Source: Hyella patelloides LEGE 07179 (GTDB taxonomy: Bacteria > Cyanobacteriota > Cyanobacteriia > Cyanobacteriales > Xenococcaceae). Taken from it: 35,931 bases of DNA. The notes beneath the pieces are model-generated. The model was not told where the DNA came from and made no database searches. It saw only the letters and a program-made list of their open reading frames with translations. This document shows, in pieces, positions 3,618 to 32,069 of this stretch. The position numbers and the translations under genes were made by a program. The number at the start of each line of letters is the position of its first letter. Position 1 is the first letter of the stretch. The DNA is taken from assembly GCF_900659865.1 (NCBI RefSeq), contig NZ_LR213806.1, forward strand, positions 1 through 35,931, in the 5' to 3' direction.

Positions 3618-4598
3618 ATGTATTCTGTTGCTCATAACTCTTCTGAATCCACCAATTTTGATTCAACCCCAGTGGTACAGACTTGGAATTTGCGAAAAGT
3701 CTACCGTACTGGTTTTTGGATGAATCAAAAAGTTGAATCACTCAAAGACTGTTCTCTGACAGTGTACCAAGGAGAAACATTTGGTTTACTAGGTCCTAAT
3801 GGTGCAGGAAAAACTACTCTGTTAAAAACTTTATTGGGTATTATTCGCCCTACTTCGGGAAAAGGAGTATTATTAGGTAAACCTATAGGCGATCGCTCTG
3901 TCAAACAAAGAATTGGCTACCTTCCAGAAAATGCCTATCTCTACGACTATCTGACTGCTTGGGAATTTTTGGAATTTACGGCTGGTTTATTTCAGATTCC
4001 GACTGCCAAACAACGTAAAAAAATTATCGAACTCTTAGATCTGGTAGGCTTGGCTAAATCTGCTGCACAAAAAAAGAAAATTAAGCAATACTCCAAAGGA
4101 ATGCGCCAAAGGGTAGGAATGGCACAAGCCTTGATTAACGATCCCGATATTGTCTTTCTTGATGAACCCATGTCAGGACTCGATCCTATGGGACGTTATC
4201 GAATGCGAGAAATTGTCCTTTCTTTGAAAAGACAGGGTAAAACAATCTTTTTTAACTCCCATATTTTAGCTGATGTCGAACAAATATGCGATCGCATTGC
4301 CGTACTTGCTTTGGGAGATTTAATTTGTCAAGGTTCTCTTCGCGAACTGCTTGGTAATGGAGATGTCTATCAAGTAGTAGTTAGGGGGGGCGATTCTCAA
4401 AGTTTGAATCCTTGGATTAAAAACCTGGCTTGGGAACACGATCGTTGGTATGGAGAGCTTACAGGACAGCCAGATCGGTTTCTTGCTCACTTAAAAGAAA
4501 TTGATGCTCACTTGATTGGAATGCATTTAGCTCGTCCTTCTTTGGAAGAATTCTTCATGCAACAACTTCGAGAGCGCAATATTGAGTTTAGCCGTTAA
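3618..4598 (+). CDS. ABC transporter ATP-binding protein (ABC-2/CcmA type)
   Basis: Cytoplasmic ATPase subunit of an ABC exporter. Walker A GPNGAGKTT (59-67), the signature YSKGMRQR (158-165), Walker B IVFLDEP (178-184) and an NSHIL H-loop are all intact, so it should hydrolyse ATP. The 326-residue length includes a C-terminal extension of about 90 residues ending in a SLEEFFMQQL segment, typical of the CcmA/NatA-type partners of ABC-2 permeases. No permease gene is next to it, so the cargo cannot be inferred. It follows the petE terminator and starts at the ATG at 3618; no clear ribosome binding site is seen. Confidence 0.88.
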   Translation: MYSVAHNSSESTNFDSTPVVQTWNLRKVYRTGFWMNQKVESLKDCSLTVYQGETFGLLGPNGAGKTTLLKTLLGIIRPTSGKGVLLGKPIGDRSVKQRIGYLPENAYLYDYLTAWEFLEFTAGLFQIPTAKQRKKIIELLDLVGLAKSAAQKKKIKQYSKGMRQRVGMAQALINDPDIVFLDEPMSGLDPMGRYRMREIVLSLKRQGKTIFFNSHILADVEQICDRIAVLALGDLICQGSLRELLGNGDVYQVVVRGGDSQSLNPWIKNLAWEHDRWYGELTGQPDRFLAHLKEIDAHLIGMHLARPSLEEFFMQQLRERNIEFSR

Positions 4599-24049: not shown

Positions 24050-24069
24050 TAAAAACTAATTAGTTTTTA
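24050..24069. repeat. 20-bp perfect palindrome at the isiC stop
   Basis: TAAAAACTAA followed by TTAGTTTTTA is fully self-complementary and contains the isiC stop codon (24058-24056). Because the arm ends in T5A on both strands it might help end transcription, but it is purely AT-rich and weak. Confidence 0.4.
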
Positions 24070-24814
24070 AGGAAGATACTTTAATCGCAGCTTTTTGAAT
24101 ATAGTTTTTTCTGGCTACTGCTTTCCAAAATTCTAAGATTTTTCGGCTTACTTTTTCAGGATAAAAATAATGGGAAAAATGGTTTCCTTGAGGACATTCC
24201 CATAAAACATCTCCTGGTTTGAAATATTCTTGCCAACCTCTCAAAGAGTTGAGGTCTACAATATTATCATTGCTACCACCACACACCATTAAAGGAGATT
24301 TAATACCTCCAGGATTGATATTAACTCGACGAAATAAAGAATGGGGAGAAGGAGAAGTATTTAGGTCTTGTTGCAGAATTAAACTTAAACCTTTAGTATT
24401 ATATTGATTCTGCTGACCAAACATTGTCTGTACCATTTGTGCCAAAATAATTCTTTGACTACAGGGTAAAAATTCCCGCAGAGCATAATAGTGAATTTGC
24501 CAGTCAACCGCAGGATGACAGCCTACTCCTAATAGAGTGAGAGATTTGACTTTATTAGGGTATTTACGAGAATAAAGTAATCCTAATAAACCTCCTGTGC
24601 TATGACCGATTAAATTAACAGGTTGTTGCAGCGAATTAAGATAATTTTCTAAAAACGATAATGCAATTTCTAGGCAACTAGGCTCATCTTGATGTTGATA
24701 ATATTCCCATCTAGCTACTGGTTGGTGATAGGATAAATGCCGTAGCAAATGATTATCAAATCTTTGAAAGCTATGATTAGCTGCTATCCAAACATTATTA
24801 GTTATTTCTGACAT
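24056..24814 (-). CDS. isiC: IsiC, alpha/beta hydrolase of the iron-stress operon
   Basis: A 252-residue alpha/beta hydrolase. The nucleophile elbow GHSTGG, an acid in GGSNDNIVD and a histidine in PQGNHFSHYF form a plausible Ser-Asp-His triad, so it is probably an esterase or lipase; the substrate is unknown. The ATG at 24814 (MSEITNN) is chosen over an upstream in-frame start at 24904, because it lies 4 bases after the stop of the preceding small gene, which suggests translational coupling. Its place downstream of isiB matches isiC of the Synechocystis isiABC operon. No signal peptide is present from this start. Confidence 0.8.
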   Translation of the reverse strand: MSEITNNVWIAANHSFQRFDNHLLRHLSYHQPVARWEYYQHQDEPSCLEIALSFLENYLNSLQQPVNLIGHSTGGLLGLLYSRKYPNKVKSLTLLGVGCHPAVDWQIHYYALREFLPCSQRIILAQMVQTMFGQQNQYNTKGLSLILQQDLNTSPSPHSLFRRVNINPGGIKSPLMVCGGSNDNIVDLNSLRGWQEYFKPGDVLWECPQGNHFSHYFYPEKVSRKILEFWKAVARKNYIQKAAIKVSSLKTN

Positions 24815-24818
24815 TATT

Positions 24819-25115
24819 TTATGAGGTAGAAGAGCTATGATAGTGAATATTCTGAGAATTTTGAAAATTATTAAATCGGCAACTATAGTTAGCTTGAAAA
24901 TCACAGCAGCCTATTGCTGATTCTGATAACGCAATCATAGGATTTATTGGACATTTTAGTCGATAATCTCCTGTAAAATAGGCGCATTTAGAACAAGGAA
25001 TTTGATGAAGCTTTTTTAGATGATTAATGCCCTGACTCAAGCTAAAAATTATTTTGTACAATGTGAAACCAAACACAATAGTCCAAAAGCTTATGCAAAA
25101 TATAGAGTGCAACAT
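24819..25115 (-). CDS. Cys-rich single-pass membrane protein (possible ssl0461 equivalent)
   Basis: A 98-residue protein with one N-terminal membrane helix (about residues 5-27) and a soluble part with five cysteines arranged as CSKC, YRLKCPINP and ALSESAIGCCDF. The CxxC-x10-C pattern with a PxxAL-x5-C tail recalls a small family in cyanobacteria, and may bind a metal or a disulfide partner. It lies between isiB and isiC. In Synechocystis a small gene, ssl0461, belongs to the isiABC transcription unit, so this may be its counterpart; that is inference. It is separated from isiB by a terminator. Confidence 0.7.
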   Translation of the reverse strand: MLHSIFCISFWTIVFGFTLYKIIFSLSQGINHLKKLHQIPCSKCAYFTGDYRLKCPINPMIALSESAIGCCDFQANYSCRFNNFQNSQNIHYHSSSTS

Positions 25116-25423: not shown

Positions 25424-25936
25424 TCAAATTCCAAACTCAGATTTAATTTGAGTAGTCCATTCTTTGATACGTGATTCTGTCATATCTGATTGGTTATCTT
25501 CATCTAAAGCCAGTCCAACAAATTTGCCTCCTTTATCTGCTTTAGACGCTTCATGTTCGTATCCATCTGTTGACCAATAACCTACAGTTTTCCCACCCAA
25601 ACTAGAAATTTTATCTTCTAAAATACCCATTGCATCTTGAAAGTTATCTGCGTATCCTAATTGATCTCCTGTGCCAAAATAAGCTACTTTTTTCCCACTA
25701 AAATCGATGTTCTCTAACTCTTCATAAAAGCCATCCCAATCAGATTGTAATTCACCAACATCCCAAGTGGGACAGCCAATAATTAAACATTCATAGTCAG
25801 CAAAATCACCTTCTGTGGCATCTGCAATCTCGTGAGATGTCACAACACTATCGCCACCGAGTTCGGCTTGAATCATTTCTGCTGCTGTTTCGGTTTTACC
25901 TGTGGTTGTACCGTAAAAAAGACCAATTTTAGTCAT
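25424..25936 (-). CDS. isiB: Flavodoxin
   Basis: Small FMN protein that replaces ferredoxin as electron acceptor of photosystem I under iron shortage. The 170-residue length is that of long-chain flavodoxins. The phosphate loop TTTGKTE (10-16), the first FMN-stacking region CPTWDVGELQSDW and the second, FGTGDQLGYADNF, are intact. A TAGGAG ribosome binding site precedes the ATG at 25936. It lies downstream of two CP43' genes, the expected isiA-isiB order, though here separated from them by a terminator and a microprotein gene. Confidence 0.97.
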   Translation of the reverse strand: MTKIGLFYGTTTGKTETAAEMIQAELGGDSVVTSHEIADATEGDFADYECLIIGCPTWDVGELQSDWDGFYEELENIDFSGKKVAYFGTGDQLGYADNFQDAMGILEDKISSLGGKTVGYWSTDGYEHEASKADKGGKFVGLALDEDNQSDMTESRIKEWTTQIKSEFGI

Positions 25937-26007: not shown

Positions 26008-26142
26008 CTATTGTTTTTGTTGCCGATCGATTACAGGCATTGCTTGTTTACAGTAGAAACAAAACCAGTAAACCCGTTGATGATTGACGTGACGTAGTAA
26101 ATTACCGTTACAGCAAGGACAAATATGTCTGGGGTCAATCAA
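26008..26142 (-). CDS. Zinc-ribbon microprotein upstream of isiB
   Basis: A frame of 44 residues from a TTG at 26142 to TAG at 26010-26008 has two cysteine knuckles, ICPCCNG and FCFYCKQ, around a basic HVNHQRVYW segment. This is the layout of a zinc ribbon and resembles small cyanobacterial proteins I have seen but cannot name. The start is uncertain: the frame is open upstream to a TAG near 26195, the only recognised start there is this TTG, and an ATG with a good GAGG lies in a different frame. A frameshifted longer gene is possible. It could bind nucleic acid or metal. Confidence 0.5.
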   Translation of the reverse strand: MIDPRHICPCCNGNLLRHVNHQRVYWFCFYCKQAMPVIDRQQKQ

Positions 26143-26273
26143 AGCAATAATTTTTAAAATCTCTTGATTTTCATCCTCAAAAAATAACTAACAAATAAAC
26201 TTTCTAAATAGTTGCTGCTTAATTATTTCTTGAGCCAAACTTGGTAGATATTTTAATGATGGAAAAAAGCAGT

Positions 26274-26570: not shown

Positions 26571-28082
26571 CTAGAATTTACCAGTAAAAATGTCTTGCAA
26601 CATATTCAAATTGTCATAAATTAAATAAGCAAAAAACGCTCCTCCCAAACCACCAACGAAAAAAGAAGCAGCAAACTGATTCCAGCTAGAAATAGTTTTT
26701 AAAGACTCTGGGACAACAGGATTAGCTGTAGCATAGGTTAAGCGATTGGGCAAAAACTGCTTTTTAAAAGAGACTCTGCCATAAATAAGCAAGCAAGTTG
26801 TCAAAATAACTACCAATCCACAGGCATTTAATAAGCCAAATAGATCGGCCTGGTTGCTATTTCTTTGAGGTCCAAGTAAAGCAAAAGGTCCAAATAAGAG
26901 ATATCCGTGAGCCATGCCAATTTCTAAACCTCGTCGCAATGGAGAAAGCCCAGGACGATATATAGGCAGATATTGCAATAGCCACAAACTAAAATCAGAA
27001 GAGTTTAGAGGAGTTACCAAATTACCAATTTGAGGATTTCCTGCAAAGGTTACTAAAGTATCTCCTTCTTTTATATTGAAACCCGCAGCAACAGCCCTAG
27101 CTCTAGCAGCGTGCCAAATATGTCCTAACAAAAATAAGACAGCAAATACAACATGAAATGTTGCTAACCAGCCTCTAGCAGTGACAACTCCTGTACTTGT
27201 TTCCACCAAGCCGACAGGACCATAGAAGACTTCAGGATAAACGGTATTGTTGACAGTACAAAAATAAGCTGCGAACAATCCCATATAAGAAATTGCACCC
27301 AAACTATAAGAAAGATAAGCCTCTCCAGAATATACTAAAGCGCGACGCGCCCATTTCAGAGGTCTAGTAGCCATATGCCACAAGCCACCAATTAAGCAAA
27401 TCGAGCCAATCCAAATATGACCGCCAACCACATCTTCTAAATTATCTACCGCAGCCATACCTTCTTTACCGTAAGCTCCAAACAAGTAACCAAAGATACG
27501 CCCTGGATTGATTGTCGGGTCAGTAATGATTCTTACTTGTCCCCCATCGCCAACCCAAGGGTCGAATAAACCACCCCAAAACATGGCTTTGAAGACAAGC
27601 AAAAATGCACCAATTCCTAGCAAAGTTAAATGAATTCCAATGATAGATGTCATCTTGTTGTCGTCTTCCCAGTCATAGCCGAAAAAACCCGCAAAAGTGT
27701 CATTTTTTTCTAAGACTTCTTGCCCTAGAAGAGAATGATAGATACCACCAGCACCTAATACTGCCGAAGAAATTAAATGAACTACTGCAATCGCAAAATA
27801 GGGATAAGTATCGATTGCCTGTCCGCCATCTGAGACACCTAAACCCAACGTAGCTAGGTGAGGTAACAATATTAACCCCTGTTCGTACATCGGTAAAACG
27901 GGATTGTACTGCGTCAACTCAAATAGAGTCATCGCTCCCGCCCAAAATACAATTAGTGCTGCTTGAGCTACGTGCGCCCCCAATAATTTACCTGACAAGT
28001 TAATAAAGCGGATATTACCCCTCCACCAACCAACTTCAGGAATTTTATTTTGATTGGGACTTTCTGAAATTACTGCTGTCAT
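26571..28082 (-). CDS. CP43'(IsiA)-PsaL fusion protein
   Basis: A 503-residue chimera. Residues 1-346 are a six-helix CP43'/IsiA chlorophyll-binding protein ([31 protein letters not shown]). Residues 347-503 match photosystem I subunit PsaL along its length: [35 protein letters not shown] and [15 protein letters not shown], ending with a last membrane helix. PsaL forms the centre of PSI trimers, so the chimera could bind antenna chlorophyll directly at that position, or form part of altered PSI assemblies. The ATG at 28082 has AAGG eight bases upstream. It follows another CP43' gene by 123 bases. Similar fusions are known in a few cyanobacteria. Confidence 0.92.
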
Positions 28083-28132
28083 CAATTTACCTTGTTTGTG
28101 TGTATTAAAGCTACCGAGTTCCCAAGTCACTA

Positions 28133-28153: not shown

Positions 28154-28205
28154 ATTAAAACATAAATTCTTCTTCTGCACCCTCTGCCTCTTCTGCATCC
28201 TCTGC

Positions 28206-29264
28206 TTAAAAATCAGGCTCAGGAGGAACTAAAGCATGGTCAACTCTTCCTTTTTGTAAATCAAATCCTGCTGCTTTGAGGGCGTGAAAGATATGTCCCT
28301 GTAAGAAAAAGAAAGCCAGCCAAAAATGAGTATTAGCCAACCAAGTTCTTGAAGAGAGCAGGTAAGAATTATTAGAAGTGAAATAAGGAAAAATATTTAA
28401 GCGAATGGATAAAGGCTTACCATAGAATACTTCTGGATAAGCTGTAGTGTTTACCGCACAGTAATAAGCAGCGATAAAACCCATTAAGGCTAATGCACCC
28501 AAACTGTAAGATAGATAGGCTTCTCCCGACCAGACAAAAAGGTTTTTCGTCCAGCCAAAAGGCTTGGTGTTGATATGCCATAAGCCACCAGCAATCAAAA
28601 TTGCCCCTACCCAAATATGACCACCGATGAGGTCTTCAAGGTTATCGACTCCTGCAATCCAGTTTTTACCGACTGCACCAAATAAATAGCCAAAAATAAT
28701 TTCAGGGTTGAGAGTCGGATTGCTAACGATTCGGACATCGGCAATAGTGGAATCGTATAAGCCACCATAGTACATTCCTTTTGCTACTAGTAAAAATACG
28801 CCTAAACCAAGCAAAATCAGATGAATTCCGATAATGTCAGTCATTTTATTGGTGTCTTGCCATTGGTAGCCAAAAAATTCTGAAACACTGCTTAAATACT
28901 TAGGACCCCATAAAGAGTGGAAAATACCGCCAAAGCCCAGAAAAGCTGAAGAAATAAGATGTAAAGCACCAATAACAAAATAAGGATAAGTGCTAACTAC
29001 TTCGCCTCCTGCGCCAACACCCCAACCCAAACTAGCCAAATGAGGTAACAAAATTAACCCCTGTTCGTACATCGGTTGAGTGATATCGAAGCGAGAAAGT
29101 TCAAAAAAAGTAAATGCACCCGCCCAAAAGACAATTAAGCCTCCATGAGCAACGTGCGCCCCTAATAATTTACCTGATATATCTTTCAAACGAGCATTTC
29201 CAGCCCACCAAGGAATATTGAATTTGTCTTCAATGCTTTGAGGGTTTTTAGCTATTGTCGTCAT
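28206..29264 (-). CDS. IsiA/CP43'-family chlorophyll-binding protein, leftward copy
   Basis: Six-helix membrane protein of 352 residues that binds chlorophyll a as antenna, usually around photosystem I. Family segments are [41 protein letters not shown] and [17 protein letters not shown]. The lumenal loop before the last helix is short compared with PSII CP43, so it cannot be psbC. The ATG at 29264 (MTTIAK) is chosen, with GAGG about 11 bases upstream. It is the first gene of the leftward arm, followed by the PsaL fusion and later isiB. It differs clearly from the rightward canonical isiA in the N-terminus and the loop [15 protein letters not shown]. Confidence 0.93.
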
Positions 29265-29652
29265 CGGCGTTCGACCTCTTCGTTGCAATATGTATTGAGA
29301 ATTAAAATCAATAAATTTTTAATTCAGCTTACAATAAAAATTGTCTTATTGAAAAGTATTTTCTTTTATTTTTTATAAAATTATCATTAAGTTATCGATC
29401 GTAAAAAGCGATCGCGTACCAAAAAACTCAATTTACTAAGGTTTTCATGGTTAAAAGCTCTCAATTCAAAAAGCGATCGTGCAACGCCTCACTTCGTGAG
29501 ATCGTCTTACTTATCAAGGAATATTTGCCCTATGTTAATTTTTGTTATAAAAAACTTGCTAAGAGTTATCAATAATGCAAAATGAACTTGTTGCTTTTTA
29601 TTGAGAATAAATAGTAACAAGATTTACAAAACTGAATTATAGAGGTTTCGTT
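29265..29652. promoter_or_regulatory. Divergent control region of the isi locus (388 bp)
   Basis: This region lies between the two outward-facing CP43' genes and must hold both promoters. It is AT-rich apart from HIP1-type sequences (about 29407-29416 and 29472-29479) and a small hairpin, CTCAC-TTC-GTGAG (29488-29500). Two imperfect Fur-like sequences are present. No open frame is convincing. Confidence 0.6.
29373..29391 (-). promoter_or_regulatory. Candidate Fur box of the divergent isi region
   Basis: Read on the minus strand the 19 bases contain TAATGATAAT and agree with 11 of 19 positions of the consensus GATAATGATAATCATTATC, ten of them contiguous. The right half is poor. It lies about 110 bases before the leftward CP43' start. 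A second imperfect candidate, TTTATT-GAG-AATAAA, is at 29597-29611, 42 bases before the rightward isiA. Confidence 0.3.
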
Positions 29653-30750
29653 TTGCAGACATACGATAAACCCCAAGTCAAGTATGATTGGTGGGCGGGT
29701 AACGCTCGTTTTGCCAATTTATCTGGCTTATTTATTTCGGCTCATGCAGCCCAAGCAGCACTGATTGTATTTTGGGCGGGTGCATTTACTTTTTTTGAAC
29801 TTTCTAAATTCGATCCTAGTTTACCGATGGGAGAACAAGGATTAATTTTACTTCCTCATCTAGCCACATTAGGTTTTGGGGTAGGGGAAGGAGGACAGAT
29901 TGTCGATACCTATCCGATGTTTGTCGTCGGTTCGGTACATTTAATTTCTTCTGCTGTTTTGGGTGCGGGTGCATTATTCCATACCTTTAAAGCACCAAGC
30001 GATTTAAAAGAAGCTAGAGGAAAAGCTCGTGATTTTCATTTTGAATGGAACGATCCCAAACAGTTAGGAATTATTCTCGGTCATCATCTGTTATTTTTGG
30101 GTATAGCTGCATTGGCTTTAGTCGCTAGAGCTATGTTTGGTGAAGGACTATACGATGTCAACATTCAAGATGTACGAGTCGTCACCGACCCAACATTGAA
30201 TCCTTTGACTATCTTTGGTTATCAAACCCATTTTGCATCCGTAGATAACCTAGAAGATTTAGTAGGCGGTCACATTTATGTCGGTGTGTTACTAATTGCT
30301 GGCGGTATCTGGCATATTATTACCCCACCTTTAGAATGGGCGAAGAAACAATTAATTTTCTCTGGAGAAGCTATTTTATCTTATTCTCTGGGTGGCATTG
30401 CTTTATGTGGCTTTGTCGCAGCCTATTACTGTGCGGTCAATACCTTGGCTTATCCACCAGAGTTTTATGGCGCACCTTTGGCTATTAAGCTAGGTGTCGT
30501 TCCTTACTTTGAAGACACGGCTACTTTATCTCCAGGGATTCATACGGCTCGCTGTTGGTTAGCTAACACCCATTTTTTCTTAGCGTTCTTCTTCCTTCAA
30601 GGACATCTCTGGCACGCTTTAAGAGCTATTGGGTTTGATTTCAAACGGGTAACTAATGCTCTTGACAATGCAGGAACTCCCCAAGCAGGTGAGCCTTTAG
30701 TCAGCAGTTCAAATGTTAAATCTGCACCTCAGCCCGCAACAGCTGAATAG
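29653..30750 (+). CDS. isiA: Iron-stress chlorophyll-binding protein IsiA (canonical type)
   Basis: The copy that most resembles Synechocystis IsiA, beginning [20 protein letters not shown] and containing [19 protein letters not shown] and [11 protein letters not shown]. It binds chlorophyll a in six membrane helices and forms rings around photosystem I under iron shortage. The 365-residue protein ends in a Pro/Ala/Ser-rich tail of about 30 residues, longer than usual. The start is a TTG (29653) with AGAGG seven bases upstream; no in-frame ATG fits the conserved N-terminus. A terminator-like structure follows, and a further CP43' gene lies 251 bases downstream. Confidence 0.94.
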
Positions 30751-31001: not shown

Positions 31002-32069
31002 ATGACAGCAACAACTTCTTTACAACGGTCTGATAACTATGATTGGTTATCAGGAAATGCTCGTTTAATTAATTTATCTGGTCAATTATTAGGAGCGCAT
31101 ATTGCCCATGCTGGCTTAATTATGTTTTGGGCTGGCTCTATTACTTTATTAGAGGTAACTAATTTTCAGCCTGATGTCGCCTTACCAGAACAAGGACTAT
31201 TATTAATTCCCAATGTAGCTCGTTTGGGTTGGGGTGTTGGTGCAGAAGGAACGATTACAAACCTCTATCCTTATTTTGTTATTGGGATACTACATCTGAT
31301 TGCTTCGGCGGTACTTGGTGCAGGGGGATTATTTCACGTGTTTCGTGGCGTGGCTAATCTCAAAGATGCTCAAGGTCGGGCTGCAAAGTTTCATTATGAA
31401 TGGAATGACCCGCAAAAACTGGGTTTTATTTTGGGTCATCACTTAATCTTTTTGGGTGTGGCTGCATTATTTTTTGCTGGCAAGGCAATATTTTGGGGTG
31501 GTATTTACGATGCTACTATTGCTAATGTACGAATTGTCAGCAATCCTACTCTTAATCCTGTAACTATTTTTGGTTATCTGTTTGGTTTAAGTGATGGTGT
31601 CTGGAATCCTTTAGGTATGGCTGCGGTCGATAATCTAGAAGATATTATTGGTGGTCATATTTGGGTCGGGATAGCTTGTATTGCTGGCGGTGCTTGGCAC
31701 ATCACTACGGAACCTCTGGATTGGGCGAAAAAAGCTTTCACTTACAACGGACACGCAATTCTTTCCTATAGTTTGGCTGGTGTAGCATTAATGGCTTTTA
31801 CTTCAGCTTATTTTGTCGCTTTTAACGATCTTGCTTTTCCTCCTGAATTGTACGGTATAGATAGAAGTTCTTTTGCTGGAACACAGGCTTTACTCTGCGG
31901 AACTTTTCTCGGTGGTCATGTTTGGCACGCTTTCAAAGGAAAAGCTGAAGCAAATGATTTGGGTATTGTGAGCGATACAGATAAATTAAGAGCTACTATT
32001 GCTGGTTTTCTCGTCTTGGCAGTTGTGGTTATTAGTTTGGTTTTACTTTCCCAATCAAGTTTTAATTGA
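31002..32069 (+). CDS. CP43'/Pcb-like antenna protein with short lumenal loop and extra C-terminal helix
   Basis: A 355-residue paralogue of IsiA. The first five helices are conserved ([30 protein letters not shown]), as is GGHVWHAFKG in the sixth. Compared with the neighbouring isiA, the lumenal stretch after FPPELYG is missing about 40 residues. The chain then continues with a polar linker and an additional hydrophobic segment at residues 331-349 (ATIAGFLVLAVVVISLVLL), giving a probable seventh helix. It is the second gene of the rightward arm. It could be an antenna protein for a different photosystem site or chlorophyll pool. Confidence 0.88.
   Translation: MTATTSLQRSDNYDWLSGNARLINLSGQLLGAHIAHAGLIMFWAGSITLLEVTNFQPDVALPEQGLLLIPNVARLGWGVGAEGTITNLYPYFVIGILHLIASAVLGAGGLFHVFRGVANLKDAQGRAAKFHYEWNDPQKLGFILGHHLIFLGVAALFFAGKAIFWGGIYDATIANVRIVSNPTLNPVTIFGYLFGLSDGVWNPLGMAAVDNLEDIIGGHIWVGIACIAGGAWHITTEPLDWAKKAFTYNGHAILSYSLAGVALMAFTSAYFVAFNDLAFPPELYGIDRSSFAGTQALLCGTFLGGHVWHAFKGKAEANDLGIVSDTDKLRATIAGFLVLAVVVISLVLLSQSSFN

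Follow-up and report, generated by a model that had tools for sequence, protein, structure and literature searches.

A CP43'-PsaL fusion gene within an isiA cluster

The window, meaning the whole 35,931-nucleotide stretch of Hyella patelloides LEGE 07179 that was analysed (contig NZ_LR213806.1, positions 1 to 35,931), contains a cluster of isiA-type genes, one of which encodes a CP43' antenna protein fused in frame to a PsaL domain (Table 1). Minus-strand positions 26574-28082 specify 503 residues with zero stops, and the plus strand of the fusion interval has stops throughout. A sequence-only reading had proposed that CP43' runs into PsaL here with no stop between them; this is confirmed by the frame and by both Pfam domains. 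Its coordinates were right, and the strand, which it did not give, is the minus strand. An alternative in-frame GTG lies upstream of the ATG, at 28130; in many relatives M-T-A stands at the position of the ATG.

Table 1. Features of the fusion gene and its surroundings, in window coordinates
Feature	Position	Strand	Details
CP43'-PsaL fusion gene (IsiA2/IsiA4 type)	26571..28082	-	503 aa; ATG 28082; TAG 26571-26573
CP43'/IsiA domain, residues 1-346	27045..28082	-	Pfam, predicted model
CP43'/IsiA domain, six long predicted helices			Residues 30-58, 93-118, 141-168, 215-238, 253-277, 302-332
PsaL domain, residues 344-493	26604..27053	-	Pfam, predicted model
PsaL domain, three long predicted helices			Residues 381-402, 410-439, 464-490
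Interdomain linker, residues 333-362	26997..27086	-	Residues 343-362 at pLDDT <50
Unfused isiA, directly upstream of the fusion, same direction	28206..29264	-	Closest solved chain 9zjt_2 (PsbC homolog), E 3.3e-150
Unfused isiA, divergent	29653..30750	+	Closest solved chain 7y3f_4 (Anabaena IsiA1), E 9.4e-178
Unfused isiA, divergent	31002..32069	+	Closest solved chain 9zjt_3, E 7.8e-116
Flavodoxin (isiB), downstream of the fusion	25424..25936	-	PF00258, E 4e-28
Alpha/beta-hydrolase beside isiB	24056..24904	-	PF00561, E 9e-13; described as a frequent neighbour in such clusters (PMC3610870, available text)
ATTCTCAATA, upstream of the isiA > fusion pair	29293..29302	-	Exact match
ATTCTCAATA, second copy, upstream of the divergent isiA pair	29599..29608	-	Exact match

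Profile searches recognise both halves, far above their cut-offs. The PSII profile PF00421 covers residues 18-291 (E = 9.2e-83) and the PsaL profile PF02605 covers residues 344-493 (192.4 bits against a cut-off of 25), so that the PsaL boundary proposed earlier, at residue 347, lies within a few residues of the start of the match. Residues 347-503, on whose alignment with PsaL the proposal depended, do align: the Pfam match has an E value of 4.5e-57, and a profile of 48 stand-alone PsaL sequences, built without fusions, gives the fusion 206.8 bits compared with 8.7 bits for the best of 1000 shuffles of these residues. The fusion scores above the cut-off of the NCBIfam IsiA/Pcb antenna family TIGR03041 (382.3 versus 335 bits) and below that of TIGR01153 for PSII CP43, psbC (412.6 versus 603.05 bits). 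It does not have the large loop between helices V and VI, the CP43 alignment skipping from 293 to 398 at query residue 293. Seven NCBIfam PsaL equivalogs match the fusion, all under cut-off (best 158.6 versus 322), in a strict test that also leaves the putative far-red-type PsaL of the host under every cut-off.

Each of the four IsiA-type proteins of the window has a different best match among the four IsiA-type chains in 7y3f and 9zjt; 9zjt probably also comes from Anabaena PCC 7120, since a chain sequence is common to the two entries. The gene order isiA > fusion > isiB > hydrolase recurs in 31 of the 80 best named loci, and a window-like divergent isiA pair beside isiA > fusion recurs in 11 of them, including L193-L196. 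The loci nearest in sequence are named Xenococcaceae, Xenococcus, Pleurocapsales and Pleurocapsa. Between the upstream isiA and the fusion lies an 18-base tandem repeat of 1.9 copies (28171-28205). Minus-strand positions 26011-26160, which lie between isiB and the fusion, encode the tail of a small protein with two cysteine pairs, CPCC and CFYC; upstream of this tail the frame, read by eye, seems to be broken by a stop.

Both exact ATTCTCAATA sites in the window fall in the divergent promoter; 0.30 sites were expected and two or more occurred in one of 100 shuffles. The element resembles a Fur half-site and is a candidate for one. Promoter and terminator scans of the window returned fewer hits than the shuffles (6 versus 13.6 and 2 versus 3.0, respectively). 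The antisense RNA IsrR was considered and rejected: Rfam RF01419 matches the strand opposite to each of the window's four isiA genes, but the psbC-type genes in L019 and L022 score higher (184 and 172.2 bits), so the signal tracks the coding DNA of the CP43 family and is no sign of the regulator.

Likeness to Anabaena IsiA2

The closest solved relative of the fusion is IsiA2 from Anabaena PCC 7120 (7y3f_1; E = 8.2e-197), with 64.5% identity over 462 aligned residues. Identity is 70.5% in the CP43' part and 54.5% in the PsaL part, and falls to 23.1% in the 13-residue stretch between them. The predicted model, from 56 sequences, has nine long helices (six plus three), a mean pLDDT of 83.1 and a pTM of 0.63, and its top fold match is again 7y3f_1 (Foldseek E = 1.8e-40; Z of 37.2 over 439 residues, r.m.s.d. 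of 8.8 Å). Given this r.m.s.d. and pTM, the arrangement of the two domains is not well predicted. The VIA list for the model consists mostly of CP43 chains, and the absence of PsaL chains from it is uninformative.

The residues reported to contact PSI in Anabaena (W313, V331, G341 and position 347) correspond to W323, L343, G353 and L359 in the window fusion; the tryptophan and the glycine are unchanged and the remaining two positions are still hydrophobic. Four of the five contacts with the next IsiA (L40, A44, A105, I108 and L113 in Anabaena; F46, A50, A111, I114 and L119 in the window) are unchanged, as are 11 of the 12 histidines of the Anabaena stretch. The residues reported to differ between the Anabaena domain and PsaL (W426, F427, N451 and W454) are S438, F439, A471 and F474 here, with only the phenylalanine kept. 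Among 76 fusions the Anabaena residue is found in two at W426, four at N451, four at W454 and 66 at F427. On this alignment the four residues are not general marks of the fusions, as identity at W426, N451 and W454 is kept in so few. Beyond the GGxGG motif the window protein has a longer tail than the Anabaena stretch; in the fusions of the host's family its length is 22 residues (12 of 12).

The cryo-EM structure of an Anabaena PSI monomer carrying six IsiA shows, in the available text, the C-terminal domain of IsiA2 in the place of PsaL with no PsaL present, and its authors proposed competition between PsaL and IsiA2 (PMC9938196; Nagao et al., 2023). Before this structure, a different arrangement had been put forward from proteomics and AFM for Chro_2988 of Chroococcidiopsis thermalis, in which the fused domain binds the PsaL of PSI from the outside, capping it and blocking trimers instead of replacing it (PMC8827656, in part). 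The presence of both stand-alone PsaL genes in the host genome would fit such a cap. The Anabaena structure speaks against it, as do 22 positions that are at least 95% common to fused and stand-alone PsaL, including R-G-L-E-x-G-x-A-H-G-Y, which would be expected of proteins using the same site, and we regard outside capping as improbable for the window protein.

Distribution and origin of the fusion

A match across both domains was found in at least 13 of the 27 genomes of the host's family, the window's included; among the matches listed, one is cut by a contig end and one has a shortened junction. In the class sample an uninterrupted fused frame is present in at least 66 of 388 cyanobacterial genomes, again including the window's, and among the matches listed two more genomes have an in-frame stop (G178 and G248) and two have split frames (G316 and G343). 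One frame of more than 400 residues with both domains occurs in 74 of the best 80 of 307 confirmed candidates, taken from named genomes, a count that includes L248 (first 90 residues in another frame) and L266 (internal repeat). Because the uninterrupted two-domain frame recurs at this frequency in both surveys, the fusion in the window is not an accident of assembly.

The gene is also functional-looking. The broken relatives in G178 and G248 (in-frame stops) and in G316 and G343 (halves in different frames), together with the Pleurocapsa sp. CCALA 161 copy, from which nearly all of the CP43' part is missing, could be taken to mean that the chimera is decaying or unexpressed. The window copy, however, is uninterrupted and keeps its contact residues and histidines, and it has 45 relatives across the class at 56-81% identity, so that decay is a most improbable explanation. 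The Pleurocapsa copy (L093, which is the same as L216; approximately 3790-4370) is a relic of a second fusion copy, in which the linker and PsaL part follow immediately on the gene start, with PsaL in another frame.

Some unusual contigs were encountered in the survey. A 941-residue 'triple fusion' in Okeania hirsuta (L266, 3817-6639) was set aside, as the additional length comes from an exact repeat within the fusion gene; it brings no new domain and is probably an assembly fault or a recent duplication. Contigs labelled Gracilibacteria and Chloroflexaceae (L206 and L258) carry isiA clusters with the fusion and are most likely cyanobacterial contigs that were wrongly binned. No relative of the fusion was confirmed among the viral contigs searched, and the plasmid search returned one psbC-annotated record that spans 59% of the query and contains no fusion. 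Overall, fusions of this type proved common in the survey, and the PsaL part may have been lost from some relatives.

Trees were built with five of the 81 fused frames left out (L031-L033, cut at an edge; L049, with a stop; L133, short) and the first eight psbC rows kept. In the CP43' tree all 76 fusions lie in one clade of 97 rows with SH-aLRT support of 95 or more, and the same clade is recovered in two sets reduced from the 203 rows of the full tree to 63 and 62 rows (SH-aLRT of 97.9 and 96). The other 21 rows of the clade do not have a fused frame; they are 17 unfused paralogs, the unfused pair L141 and L145, and two frame-split fusions represented by their front halves. The fused domains do not come together in the free PsaL tree. 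Several independent fusions were considered on this account and rejected: the PsaL tree in which the fused domains are constrained together has the higher likelihood (p-AU = 0.841), and the CP43' trees keep the fusions in one clade, with some unfused rows. A single origin is the simpler reading. The unfused rows within the clade may be losses or may reflect ancestry; when nine sampled of the 17 sister paralogs were kept outside the fusions, p-AU was 0.148.

L141 (3030-4136) and L145 (3325-4446) are unfused isiA genes within the fusion clade that end inside the linker, and no PsaL was found in the stretches examined downstream of them. Both features suggest that this pair may have lost its PsaL part, with ancestry as an alternative; the test of loss against ancestry gave a p-AU of 0.146.

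Stand-alone PsaL in the host and the proposed role of the fusion

The search of the host genome for a standard psaL, which the sequence-only reading had suggested as a check, found two stand-alone genes besides the fusion. PsaL1 (contig C171, 160 residues) is closest to chains 6lu1_L, 4l6v_L and 1jb0_L, which we take to be PsaL from trimeric PSI. PsaL2 (contig C278, 189 residues; stretch L273, 2204-8967) is encoded after a second psaA-psaB pair that has a response-regulator-domain gene upstream, and groups at 100% with four further PsaL sequences in the PsaL tree. We infer that PsaL2 and these four partners are of the far-red type because of the second psaA-psaB pair and the longer tail; the psaA-psaB-psaL stretch resembles a portion of a far-red acclimation cluster.

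Four PsaL residues have been linked to PSI trimers, namely Q122, D149, R153 and N157 in Synechocystis numbering (PMC8827656, in part), a numbering that by our own count fits the 4l6v_L chain. PsaL1 and PsaL2 of the host both read Q, D, R and N at these positions, and the window fusion reads Q, Q and T with the last residue absent. In the sets examined, the full set is present in none of 76 fusions, five of five far-red-type sequences and three of 48 stand-alone PsaL, the last drawn mostly from rankings by similarity to the fusion, which means that three of 48 is not a rate for cyanobacteria at large. As 45 of these 48 are also without the full set, its loss is not special to the fusions. Judged by these residues, the fusion is the sole PsaL form in this host that is without the trimer set, unlike the situation in C. 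thermalis (PMC8827656, available text). The fusions in L122 (2636-4120) and L123 (2505-4199) read L, D, R and N, three of the four, and are an unexplained exception. Their PsaL parts stand apart on a long branch (0.8) and their CP43' parts group at 91 with the fusions of L078, L079, L084 and L087; domain exchange is possible.

Taken together, these observations suggest that the window protein, which is of the IsiA2/IsiA4 type, most probably takes the PsaL site and holds PSI as an antenna-loaded monomer under iron stress. In it a six-helix chlorophyll-binding CP43' antenna is joined through a flexible linker to the three-helix PsaL domain. Under conditions that are presumably those of iron shortage, the fused domain would occupy the PsaL site of a PSI monomer instead of ordinary PsaL, and the antenna domain would be pinned beside PsaA as the first member of a short IsiA arc, the remaining IsiA being supplied by the three neighbouring isiA genes. 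The complex would be kept monomeric because the antenna domain obstructs the approach of a neighbouring monomer and the PsaL domain is without most of the trimer-contact residues. PsaL and the fusion would compete for the site, and their ratio would set the share of trimers and antenna-loaded monomers. The best prediction for this host is that the fusion converts trimer-forming PSI to such monomers during iron stress.

Occupancy of the PsaL site and the monomeric state have been shown for Anabaena (PMC9938196, in the text available), and the same action would be expected here by homology. The ideas of an antenna at a fixed place on PSI, an altered oligomer and a stress form of PSI without ordinary PsaL all agree with that structure and are supported by homology. 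The claim that the fusion replaces PsaL also finds support in homology, but as the genome still has its two stand-alone psaL genes, 'replace' is better read as 'compete with'. The mechanism at the PsaL site is very likely right, although it has already been published for a relative. In its favour are the standing of Anabaena IsiA2 as the best solved relative, the conserved contacts and histidines, and the clustering of four IsiA types with flavodoxin. Other observations weigh against it. A PSI1-IsiA13 monomer without PsaL has been described in the absence of such a fusion, the authors suspecting that PsaL was lost in purification (PMC12808642, in part), and IsiA arcs form on PSI monomers of a psaL deletion mutant, likewise without such a fusion (PMC8635728, in part). 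A simple transfer from Anabaena is also opposed by the three differing PsaL-distinguishing residues, the longer tail and the r.m.s.d. to 7y3f_1.

The fusion might instead serve mainly in acclimation to white or far-red light and not in iron stress, being abundant in white light and cleared in far-red light to allow PsaL2 trimers. In C. thermalis PCC 7203 the level of the homologue in white light is approximately 80 times that in far-red light (PMC8827656, as far as its available text goes), and in the host a psaL of the far-red-type clade follows the second psaA-psaB pair. The fusion gene, however, is clustered with genes typical of iron stress (three unfused isiA and flavodoxin), and the host PsaL1 already has the trimer residues, unlike that of C. 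thermalis. A role mainly in light acclimation is therefore unlikely, and a role in iron stress is preferred. A wider form of the preferred reading is a tentative and rather doubtful one: PsaL1, far-red PsaL2 (both of the trimer type) and the fusion might compete for one site, with the fusion as the sole switch from trimers to antenna-loaded monomers on both white-light and far-red PSI. Were this three-way competition to hold, iron stress during far-red growth would give a chlorophyll-f PSI monomer with a chlorophyll-a antenna.

In one molecule the fusion would couple the addition of an antenna to PSI with the keeping of PSI as a monomer. This coupling is well explained in Anabaena, in which the normal PSI is a tetramer. 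The present host is useful since its PsaL looks trimer-forming and apparent far-red PSI genes are also present, and it could serve to separate control of the oligomer by the antenna domain, as a docking block, from control by the altered PsaL tail.

Proteins of this kind have been described before. A PsbC-PsaL hybrid protein was reported in 2013 in Nodularia (Nsp37500) and nine further genomes; its class name, CBPV, is cited there from another paper (PMC3610870). The IsiA-PsaL type has been reported in Trichodesmium (PMC12090762) and in Chroococcidiopsis, with a relative named in Pleurocapsa sp. PCC 7327 (PMC8827656), as far as the available texts of these reports extend. The window fusion is a further member of this widespread, already described type, and the idea that it replaces PsaL is not new. 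The modest additions made here are the host setting, with a trimer-type PsaL1, a far-red-type PsaL2 and the fusion in one genome, the class-wide count and the exceptions.

The window fusion shares with Anabaena PCC 7120 IsiA2 (All4002; PDB entry 7y3f chain 1) the domain order, the nine helices, the companion IsiA types and most of the residues that contact PSI and IsiA. It differs in its longer loop between PsaL helices 2 and 3, its longer C-terminal tail and three of the four residues that separate the Anabaena domain from PsaL. The hosts also differ, as Anabaena forms PSI tetramers (PMC9938196, available text), whereas the PsaL1 of the window host resembles PsaL of trimeric PSI. The CBPV 'PsbC-PsaL hybrid proteins' have the same fusion, with flavodoxin and alpha/beta-hydrolase neighbours, but differ in species, the 2013 list in the available text holding no member of the window lineage (PMC3610870). 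IsiA4 of Leptolyngbya sp. JSC-1 and of Trichodesmium is alike in its C-terminal PsaL domain and its iron-responsive isiA cluster, which in both includes cpcG2 (PMC12090762, in part); inspection of the window's open reading frames recognised no such gene. Finally, Chro_2988 of C. thermalis PCC 7203 is an IsiA-PsaL fusion without the trimer residues in a host with a far-red PsaL2; there the white-light PsaL1 is also without these residues (PMC8827656, in part), whereas the PsaL1 of the window host has all four.
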